In this document: one piece after another, positions 3,861-42,701 of the stretch
How the letters are laid out: each line of letters begins with the position of its first letter
How positions within the stretch are numbered: the first letter of the stretch is position 1
Origin: Gemmatimonadetes bacterium T265
GTDB taxonomy: Bacteria; Gemmatimonadota; Gemmatimonadetes; Gemmatimonadales; Gemmatimonadaceae
Direction of reading: 5' to 3'
DNA: 64,000 bases
Assembly: GCA_019973575.1 (NCBI GenBank)
Contig: BPUI01000001.1
Coordinates: 1,438,342 to 1,502,341, forward strand
Program-made: the position numbers and the translations under genes
The notes under the pieces: generated by a model
What the model was told of the DNA's origin: nothing
Seen by the model: the letters and a program-made list of their open reading frames with translations, nothing else
Databases searched by the model: none

Positions 3861-5249
<1,389 letters not shown>

Positions 5250-5290
5250 GCGAACTACGCTACACGGGGCGGCCGGGTGAGCGGAGGTGG

Positions 5291-5534
5291 GGCGCTGTTG
5301 GTCGGGCGCTGTTGGTCGGGCGCTGTTGGTCGGGCGCTGTTGGTGGAACGCTGTTGATGCGGCGCTGTTGGTGGAACGCTGTTGATGCGGCGCTGTTGGT
5401 GAAACGCTGTTGGTAAGGCGGCCCGCTCGGCTCGGCGCTCCCGCCGTTCCAACAGCGCCGCATCAACAGCGCCCGACCAACAGCGCCGTATCAACAGCGT
5501 TCCACCAACAGCGCCCGACCAACAGCGCCGTACC
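5291..5534. repeat. Inverted array of 14-bp units, copy 1 (9 + 6 units around a 34-bp spacer)
   Basis: Nine tandem 14-bp units of the type GGCGCTGTTGGTCG run from 5291 to 5416. A 34-bp spacer follows (5417-5450) with conserved ends GGCGGCCCGC and GCCGTTCC. Then six units in reverse orientation, type AACAGCGCCCGACC, run from 5451 to 5534. The core CAACAGCG is constant and about five positions vary between units. The period is not a multiple of three and the frames through it look non-coding. Transcribed RNA could form a long imperfect hairpin. It lies in the argG-argH gap; a second copy is at 40306. Confidence 0.95.
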
Positions 5535-5574: not shown

Positions 5575-6957
<1,383 letters not shown>

Positions 6958-39555: not shown

Positions 39556-40344
39556 ATGCCGCCCGCCGCGGCGCCCCGGTCCGTGCCACGCACCGCGGCG
39601 TCGGCCTTGCGCGGGGCGCTCGGCATGCCGACCACCGTCCAGCGTCGCGACGACGGGGCGACCGAGGCCGCGCGGCGCGTCGCGATCGCCACCGCCGTGT
39701 TTTCCGTCGTCCACACGATCCTCGCCAGCCACCGCGCCAAGCGCCTCGCGGAGCGCGTGGTCGGCGAGCGCGCGGCCCGCGGTGGCTACCGCCTCGCCTA
39801 CAACGGCGTCGCCATCGGGATGACGCTCGGACTCACCGCCTACGTTCTGCGCCGCCGCGGTCCGATGGTCTACGCGCTCCACGGCCCCGCAGCCGCGCTC
39901 GTCCGCACGGGGCAGCTCGCCGCCTTGGGGATCGCCCTCCGCGCGGCCATCGACGCGGGCTTCGCCGACCTCTCAGGCTTCGGGCCCGCCTGGCGCTGGA
40001 TCGCCGGCGCCCCTCTTTCGCCAGCGCCCGACGGGCAGGGCCCCTCCGAACGTCGCCCCGGCGAACCGACCCCCCACGGCACGTTCGCCCGGACCCGGAA
40101 CCCACTCAACTTCTACGTCGTCCCGGTCCTCTGGCTCGCCCCGCGCGCGAGCGCGGGCCGGATCGGACTCAACGCGGCCTTCACCGCGTACTGCGTGCTC
40201 GGCTCGTGGCACGCCAACCAGATGCTCGCGGCGCGGCACGGGGCGGGGTGGGGAGAATACGAAGCGGCGGTGCCGCTGTTTGTGCCGCGGGGACGCGTTA
40301 GACACGGCGCTGTCGATGCTGCGGTGTTGGTGAAACGCTGTTGA
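39556..40344 (+). CDS. NnrU/isoprenylcysteine-methyltransferase-like membrane protein
   Basis: 262 residues, four or five hydrophobic segments. VFSVVHTILASHRAKRLAERVVG is an NnrU-type opening and TFARTRNPLNFYVVPVLWLA with WGEYEAAVPLFVP matches the C-terminal SAM-binding part of ICMT/MddA-like enzymes (RNP and E-Y motifs). A methyltransferase role is possible but not shown. The last 17 residues (from VRHGAVDAAV) are encoded by the first units of the 14-bp repeat array, which supplies the stop codon. Confidence 0.65.
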   Translation: MPPAAAPRSVPRTAASALRGALGMPTTVQRRDDGATEAARRVAIATAVFSVVHTILASHRAKRLAERVVGERAARGGYRLAYNGVAIGMTLGLTAYVLRRRGPMVYALHGPAAALVRTGQLAALGIALRAAIDAGFADLSGFGPAWRWIAGAPLSPAPDGQGPSERRPGEPTPHGTFARTRNPLNFYVVPVLWLAPRASAGRIGLNAAFTAYCVLGSWHANQMLAARHGAGWGEYEAAVPLFVPRGRVRHGAVDAAVLVKRC

Positions 40345-40479
40345 TGTCACGCTGTTGGTAGGGCACTGTTGATACGGCGGCCCGCGCCGACCGGGGGCAG
40401 CGCCGTTCCAACAGCGCCGTATCAACAGCGCCTCACCAACAGCGTGACATCAACAGCGCCCGACCAACAGCGCCGTCCC
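40306..40479. repeat. Inverted array of 14-bp units, copy 2 (5 + 5 units around a 34-bp spacer)
   Basis: Five 14-bp units (40306-40375, e.g. CACGCTGTTGGTAG), a 34-bp spacer (40376-40409) with the same ends GGCGGCCCGC and GCCGTTCC as copy 1, then five inverted units (40410-40479, e.g. AACAGCGTGACATC). The order of variable bases is mirrored: GTAT, (T)CAC, ACAT outward on the right match GTAT, CTAC, ACAT read from the left arm, so a stem of about 55 bp can form. Located between convergent genes and overlapping the end of the first. Confidence 0.95.
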
Positions 40480-41931: not shown

Positions 41932-42701
41932 GCGCCTCGACGGACGACCTCCCGCACGCGGTCCTCTTTGATTTCGGCGGCACGCTCGACGCTGACGGCC
42001 TGCCCTCCGTCGCCCAGTTCGACCTCGCGTACCGAGCCGAAGGGGGAACGCGGGACCCGGGAGCGTTCGCGGACGCATTCCGCACCTCCGACTGGCAGCT
42101 CGCCAGCCTCGCCCACGTCGCCGGCCTGGCGTTCACCGCGACCGTCGACGCCCAGATCGCCCTCCTTGCCGCGCTCCTCCCCGGCGAATCGCACGTCGAC
42201 TGGCGCGCCGTCGCGGCCCGTGTCACAGCCGCCGCCCACGCCGTCGCCGCCCGCAACCGCCCGCTACTTCAGTCTCTCCACGCCCACGCCCGACTCGGCG
42301 TCGTCTCCAACTTCACCGGCAACGTCGACCGCTGCCTCGACGAGCTCGGCCTTCTCGACCTCTTCGATGCCATCGCCGATTCGGCCGTCGTCGGCCACGC
42401 CAAACCGGACCCCGAGCTCTTCCGCACCGCACTCCGCGCCCTCGACACCCCGCCGGCCAACGCGATGATGGTCGGCGATAACCCCTTTGCCGACGTGCGC
42501 CCCGCCGCCGCGCTCGGCATGCGCACGTGCTGGCTCGCCCCGCTCCAAAGGCCGGCACCCGACGGTTGCACCCCGACGCACCGCATCGCCCGCCTCCCCG
42601 ATCTGCTCGCGGTGCTCGGCGTGGATCCTCGCGTCCGCGGGGATGACGGCCGTGGTCGCAGTCATCCCCGCGCAAGCGCGAATCCACCCTTGGTCCGGTG
42701 A
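41928..42701 (+). CDS. HAD-superfamily phosphatase with repeat-derived C-terminus
   Basis: About 257 residues. DFGGTLDADG carries the nucleophile Asp; VVSNFTGNVD is motif II, GHAKPDPELFRTAL motif III and VGDNPFADVRPAAALG motif IV, so all HAD motifs are intact. A TTG start at 41928 is inferred because no ATG or GTG precedes motif I closely. The last 20 or so residues (VDPRVRGDDGRGRSHPRASA) translate an inverted pair of REP-like palindromes (42622-42687). It overlaps the nucleotidyltransferase start by four bases. Confidence 0.8.
   Translation: MSASTDDLPHAVLFDFGGTLDADGLPSVAQFDLAYRAEGGTRDPGAFADAFRTSDWQLASLAHVAGLAFTATVDAQIALLAALLPGESHVDWRAVAARVTAAAHAVAARNRPLLQSLHAHARLGVVSNFTGNVDRCLDELGLLDLFDAIADSAVVGHAKPDPELFRTALRALDTPPANAMMVGDNPFADVRPAAALGMRTCWLAPLQRPAPDGCTPTHRIARLPDLLAVLGVDPRVRGDDGRGRSHPRASANPPLVR
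42622..42687. repeat. REP-like palindrome pair inside the HAD gene 3' end
   Basis: Unit GTGGATCCTCGCG...GGGGATGAC (42622-42648) is repeated in inverse as GTCATCCCCGCG...CGAATCCAC (42661-42687). Each unit is itself a hairpin. The same repeat type occurs at 47105-47197. Confidence 0.8.

Follow-up and report, generated by a model that had tools for sequence, protein, structure and literature searches.

Between the genes argG and argH of Gemmatimonadetes bacterium T265, tandem units of 14 bp face inverted units of the same kind across a short spacer. The locus raises the question of whether such an array is a non-autonomous element, a structured RNA, an mRNA-processing site, a set of protein-binding sites or simply slippage debris. 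The window examined, that is, the whole stretch of 64,000 nucleotides containing the locus, belongs to a Gemmatimonadaceae genome of 5.63 Mb in six contigs.

The array between argG and argH

An earlier note on this DNA had described nine 14-bp units opposite six inverted ones with a fixed 8-bp core, and both observations were borne out: CGCTGTTG-n6, repeated nine times, faces its mirror image, CAACAGCG-n6, repeated six times, with a core every 14 bp and all nine plus six cores exact (Table 1). The same 14-bp arrays are reported by TRF at this site. The spacer had been given as 34 bp, but the innermost cores are 37 bp apart. Nor do the positions between cores vary freely, as had been claimed for about five of them; all six follow YNNNAY, the unit being CAACAGCG-YNNNAY. 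The 8-mer core occurs 23 times in the window against 1.65 expected by chance, a count that no shuffle attained, and 22 of the 23 occurrences fall inside two arrays, the one described above and the copy with conserved spacer ends that had been placed at 40306, in which five units face five across the same 37-bp gap.

As had been stated, argG and argH run in the same direction, both on the minus strand. When this strand was folded as RNA from argG to argH, the predicted energy was -239.5 kcal/mol, versus -147.7 kcal/mol for shuffles (z = -16.8), in agreement with the large stem anticipated should the region be transcribed. Elsewhere in the window, at 42600-42701, the C-terminal tail of a HAD-like ORF (LGVDPRVRGDDGRG) resembles translated copies of a widespread palindromic repeat.

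Table 1. Positions of the two arrays and neighboring features in the window
Feature	Position	Strand	Remark
argH	3861..5249	-	start 44 bp from array
TAGCGT, 7 nt upstream of argH ATG	5257..5262	-	fits TANNNT (leaderless-promoter-like)
Left arm, nine tandem 14-bp units	5293..5412	-	core CAACAGCG on minus, CGCTGTTG on plus
37-bp centre (loop side)	5413..5449	.	related to centre of other copies (CGGCGGCCCG...CGCCGTTC)
Right arm, six tandem 14-bp units	5450..5527	+	core CAACAGCG
argG	5575..6957	-	stop codon faces array, 48 bp away
Second array, left arm, five units, some degenerate	40308..40371	-	
TGA in array unit (CGCTGTTGATG)	40342..40344	+	terminates plus-strand ORF entering second array
Second array, 37-bp centre	40372..40408	.	
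Second array, right arm, five units	40409..40472	+	

The argG-argH junction in relatives

The gene argH is present in 40 of 41 genomes. For the junction comparison 30 loci were taken, and argG and argH both aligned in the genome of the window and in 23 others. The two matches lie 40-221 bp apart in 21 of these 23 relatives, much of this distance being unaligned protein ends, and no array is found between them; the remaining two have roughly 0.9 kb of gene-like sequence between the genes. Since argG lies next to argH with no array in these 21 relatives, the most fitting reading of the array, from this comparison of sequences, is an insertion at an operon junction.

The hexamer TAGCGT in front of argH belongs to a motif, TANNNT, that is about 10-fold enriched 6-7 nt before start codons in this genome (12 occurrences 6 nt and 7 occurrences 7 nt upstream of called starts, versus 0.8 in shuffles for either position), which suggests leaderless transcripts in the lineage. 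The motif is found at 9.8% of starts with >80 bp upstream versus 0.8% of operon-internal starts. From this one motif we infer that argH may have acquired a promoter of its own. Behind arrays in general the promoter-like motif is not enriched over other operon starts (3/19 vs 9.8%).

A family of dispersed arrays

The genome holds 82 exact CAACAGCG-n6-CAACAGCG pairs, while the reversed-pattern control gave 0, and further, older arrays emerge once mismatches are allowed. About 29 arrays could be laid out by this pattern-based search, which may miss old degenerate copies: 27 on C1, the 3-Mb contig, one on C3 and a degenerate one on C2. Units per arm range from two to nine. In ten arrays the gap between the innermost cores is 37 bp; the 23 bp obtained at the loci L031 and L036 come from counting a degenerate unit of the centre among the cores. 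Many copies have an asymmetric centre in common (CGGCGGCCCG...GGGGGCAGCGCCGTTC), which at L047 lies in inverse orientation relative to the others, and the outer ends of the arrays share CCGTCCCACCCGCC. Common centres and outer ends at unrelated loci imply copying between loci. Inspection of L034 and L041 by eye showed no target-site duplication at their ends, where the outer units are degenerate and the exact limits uncertain.

The earlier note had tied the view that such arrays are simple slippage debris to there being only these two copies and no conservation in relatives; the full-genome search gave about 29, and relatives are considered below. Tandem-repeat slippage with mirror symmetry by chance could be suggested by the unmirrored 14-bp tandem repeats with CAACNGCG present in many unrelated bacteria. 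It is nevertheless hardly credible here, being contradicted by about 29 arrays, mostly mirrored, with exact pairs and common centres in one genome, and by first-order Markov controls, which yield no mirrored arrays.

One copy had the appearance of a one-armed array (L040), a reading that was rejected: at L040:1466-3005 a mirrored array is split at its centre by an insertion sequence (IS) with a Mutator/IS256-type transposase (PF00872). The junctions show inverted IS ends and TCCCGGCC repeated on both sides, resembling by eye an 8-bp duplication. This is the sole transposase seen beside an array, and it belongs to its own IS inside the centre; a gene that could mobilise the family was not found.

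Contig C2 carries, at L219, L221, L223 and L228, other long gene-end stems of the TCATCCTGAGCGCAGCGAAGGATC and ACCCCCGCG...CGCGGGGGT types, which are presumably widespread bacterial repeats. A 400-kb sample of C2-C4 (L218-L237) contained 20 tRNA genes and 0 strictly detected mirrored arrays, and a 400-kb sample of C1 contained 3 tRNA genes and 4 mirrored arrays. This C2-C4 pattern may match a region that PMC11237797 describes as repeat-poor and strand-biased. Restriction to one replicon was rejected as a rule, since the two plasmids of Gemmatirosa carry similar arrays.

The sister family in Gemmatirosa

Mirrored arrays of CAACAGCG were not found beyond the organism's own genome in searches of 99 and 288 genomes of the order, nor was any mirrored array of this word found in viral contigs. 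Scanning 84,980 species genomes for three spaced CAACNGCG yielded 76 loci; among the loci listed with an inverted core nearby none shows the arrangement of two facing arrays, and the majority resemble ordinary tandem repeats. The conservation in relatives that the earlier note had proposed to look for was therefore absent for the exact word and present for the design, as Gemmatirosa has the same design with another core. In Gemmatirosa kalamazoonensis (genome G016, whose contig C3 is NZ_CP007129.1 at 100%), a member of a sister genus, a detector that accepts mirrored arrays whatever their word counted 19 across 200 kb; an equal length of the genome G015 gave 2. The same detector gave 0 in 100 kb each of G022, G023 and G013, in 60 kb of G065 and on first-order Markov controls. 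A slightly looser run over another 120 kb of each of the first two genomes yielded 4 in G016 and 1 in G015, and 348 kb of five other genomes yielded 0.

The unit words of Gemmatirosa differ (GAGGGCAG, GGACTGAAGA with CTCCACGTACGAGT ends, CCGCAGAGGACGCAGAGG and others), and many unrelated unit words stand at gene ends in both Gemmatirosa and G015. Among the Gemmatirosa arrays are some of the same 14-bp mirrored design, with core CAGCGCCG and hexamer NNNNAY, commonly comprising four plus four units about a short centre. Exact CAGCGCCG-n4-AY pairs number 97 in Gemmatirosa, one in one other genome and 0 in the genome of the window. The CAACAGCG and CAGCGCCG families agree in period, in five of eight core positions and in having AY in front of the core, and several hexamers, including CCGCAT, CCTCAC and CCGTTC, are common to both; from this resemblance the two families may be homologous. 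Because the same design carries a different core word in a sister genus, the arrays appear to be a type of extragenic repeat that is undescribed and changes fast. Gemmatirosa also has long arrays built from GCGGGAC units of about 15 bp (L238:13041-13270 and L315:10776-11209), and at L238 nearly all of these units are found to one side of a GTACCTAGGTCCCAGG stem.

The arrays might instead be sites at which a sequence-specific protein (a chromosome organiser, a terminator protein or a transposase) would read the core word. The core is indeed largely constant across loci while the hexamer varies, the word changes as a block between the two genera (CAACAGCG and CAGCGCCG), and the mirrored layout offers multiple sites. 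Successive bursts from one master copy would fix the word too, however, the number of units per arm is as variable as two to nine, and there is no candidate protein. We regard this explanation as quite improbable.

Placement of the arrays at gene ends

Gene positions were taken from a codon-usage gene caller made for this analysis, with which 28 arrays were analysed. All but one of them (27/28) lie between genes, and in most cases a stop codon precedes them by 15-70 bp. The exception, at L047 (7062-7125), interrupts no gap but falls within a gene predicted to encode an ABC-transporter ATPase, where the array units are translated as a linker joining the two ABC domains (PPTAPYQQRRINSAGPTAPDQ). 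Convergent gaps are over-represented (9/27 vs 12-14%, p 0.003-0.008), and divergent gaps contain three arrays, a deficit that is weak in this genome alone (p 0.05-0.13). In codirectional gaps the array is closer to the upstream stop codon than to the downstream start in 14/15 cases (p = 0.0005), or 13/14 if the second array of the window is counted as convergent, which is the better class for it since a plus-strand ORF missed by the gene caller stops at 40344. None of the 14-15 scored Gemmatirosa elements is in a divergent gap. Most stop codons in that genus lie <=12 bp from the first core, and 11 of 20 coincide with the TGA in CTGATGCGG, a single phase of the unit (p = 2e-8 for a chance of 1 in 14). 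Placement behind stop codons agrees with a role at transcript ends, which the arrays probably mark.

Long hairpins at gene ends are common in the clade. In G016 and G015, where a gene end has at least 60 bp of space downstream, a long stem follows in 35-37% of cases, and three other genera have long stems at almost no gene ends. A stem score of at least 20 is reached at 18-21% of all gene ends in G016 and G015, versus 0-3% in the three other genera. Behind one gene, at the L031 junction, three genera carry three different hairpin arrays, which hinted at conserved array positions. This idea was dropped: in Gemmatirosa, orthologous gene ends bore long stems in 7/16 cases versus 44/125 ends with at least 60 bp of space (p = 0.34), and in G015 long stems were rarer at orthologous ends than at other ends with downstream space. 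As the rate at orthologous ends is not above background, positional conservation is not claimed.

Complementarity of the arms

Within an element the two arms are coupled. Own arms pair at -1.56 kcal/mol per nt versus -1.39 for swapped arms (sd 0.028; 0/20,000 permutations as good), and exact hexamers are common to both arms at 0.256 versus 0.091 expected (p < 5e-5). For Gemmatirosa the hexamer values are 0.217 versus 0.075 (p = 0.003), and the energy-based test was not significant (p = 0.26). The sense fold was more stable than the antisense fold in 7/21 codirectional elements (p = 0.77), and no Rfam family reaches its gathering cut-off for the array. The structured RNA considered in the earlier note is thus not supported as a target of RNA-level selection. 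Since the sense RNA folds no better than the antisense, the palindrome seems to be kept at the DNA level, and an RNA function gains no direct support. Arm coupling without strand preference points to upkeep of the DNA, in which one arm may template the repair of the other within a hairpin.

Such coupling would also be expected if the arrays were terminators grown in place, with hairpins expanding by slippage and template switching in the absence of transposition, and loci made similar by gene conversion. The position of the arrays behind stop codons, the many unrelated unit words at gene ends in Gemmatirosa and G015, and the three different arrays at the L031 junction agree with growth in place. 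The asymmetric centre and outer ends common to unrelated loci in both orientations nonetheless need copying from locus to locus, and we consider this origin unlikely.

Comparison with known repeats

The note had found no REP/BIME or MITE layout. REP, BIME and REPIN sequences are dispersed extragenic palindromes associated with RAYT transposases (Y1, TnpA_REP) (PMC3116915, PMC3733652, PMC8266576). Like them, the arrays are dispersed, multi-copy, extragenic and non-autonomous, and roles at mRNA 3' ends have been proposed. The REP/BIME unit is palindromic and of 20-40 bp, however, whereas neither the core CAACAGCG nor the 14-bp unit is, a palindrome arising only between two arrays. The RAYT Y1 transposase (PF01797) is absent from the genome of the window and from Gemmatirosa G016, and was rejected as the mobiliser for this absence. 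MITEs are likewise short, dispersed and without coding capacity, and their inverted-repeat ends correspond to the mirrored arms with common outer ends, but in the arrays the whole arms are tandem arrays of variable length. A stable predicted hairpin behind a stop codon recalls an intrinsic terminator; as no U-tract follows the stem, the argG-argH array is not a canonical one. Terminators in Neisseria are formed by inverted copies of the species-specific uptake-sequence word. The likeness lies in a lineage-specific word present as inverted copies at gene ends, and the difference in that Neisseria uses one inverted pair and the argG-argH type tandem arrays.

On the G. kalamazoonensis chromosome, 471 uncharacterised short repeats of 90 and 150 bp have been reported in total (PMC11237797). 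They are dense, dispersed and short and occur in the same organism group; the passages of that paper on short repeats give size and density, and there hairpins, palindromes and terminators are unmentioned. Judging by array lengths, some of these repeats may be such arrays.

Proposed origin and role

Of the possibilities listed at the outset, a new non-autonomous element fits best, given about 29 dispersed copies, common centres and ends and the apparent insertion between argG and argH. We lean, without great confidence, towards a dispersed, non-autonomous palindromic repeat family whose arms are maintained through hairpins and whose copies are kept behind stop codons as transcript ends. An element has a centre between two arms that mirror each other, each made of 14-bp units with core CAACAGCG and hexamer YNNNAY, and its copies would spread via a putative trans-acting mobilising activity. 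The arms would lengthen by slippage and stay complementary through a DNA hairpin that lets one arm template the repair of the other. Behind stop codons the copies would persist by being harmless and would act as strand-symmetric transcript ends, that is, as two-way terminators, insulators or 3' stabilisers. The argG-argH element would have split an ancestral argGH operon, with argH now possessing a promoter-like motif of its own.

A bolder and rather doubtful proposal is that mirrored 14-bp arrays serve as gene-end marks in Gemmatirosa and its relatives, carrying stop codon and terminator together. A core word rewritten genome-wide in each genus would then imply a co-evolving trans-acting reader, either a mobiliser or a termination protein.

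In the two sampled genera, roughly one in three gene ends with space downstream bears a long hairpin, and many of these hairpins are tandem arrays in mirror image whose words are not the same from genus to genus. If the arrays end transcripts, a lineage can replace its terminators by dispersed repeats, and the change of word between sister genera would be a natural experiment on what keeps repeats uniform.
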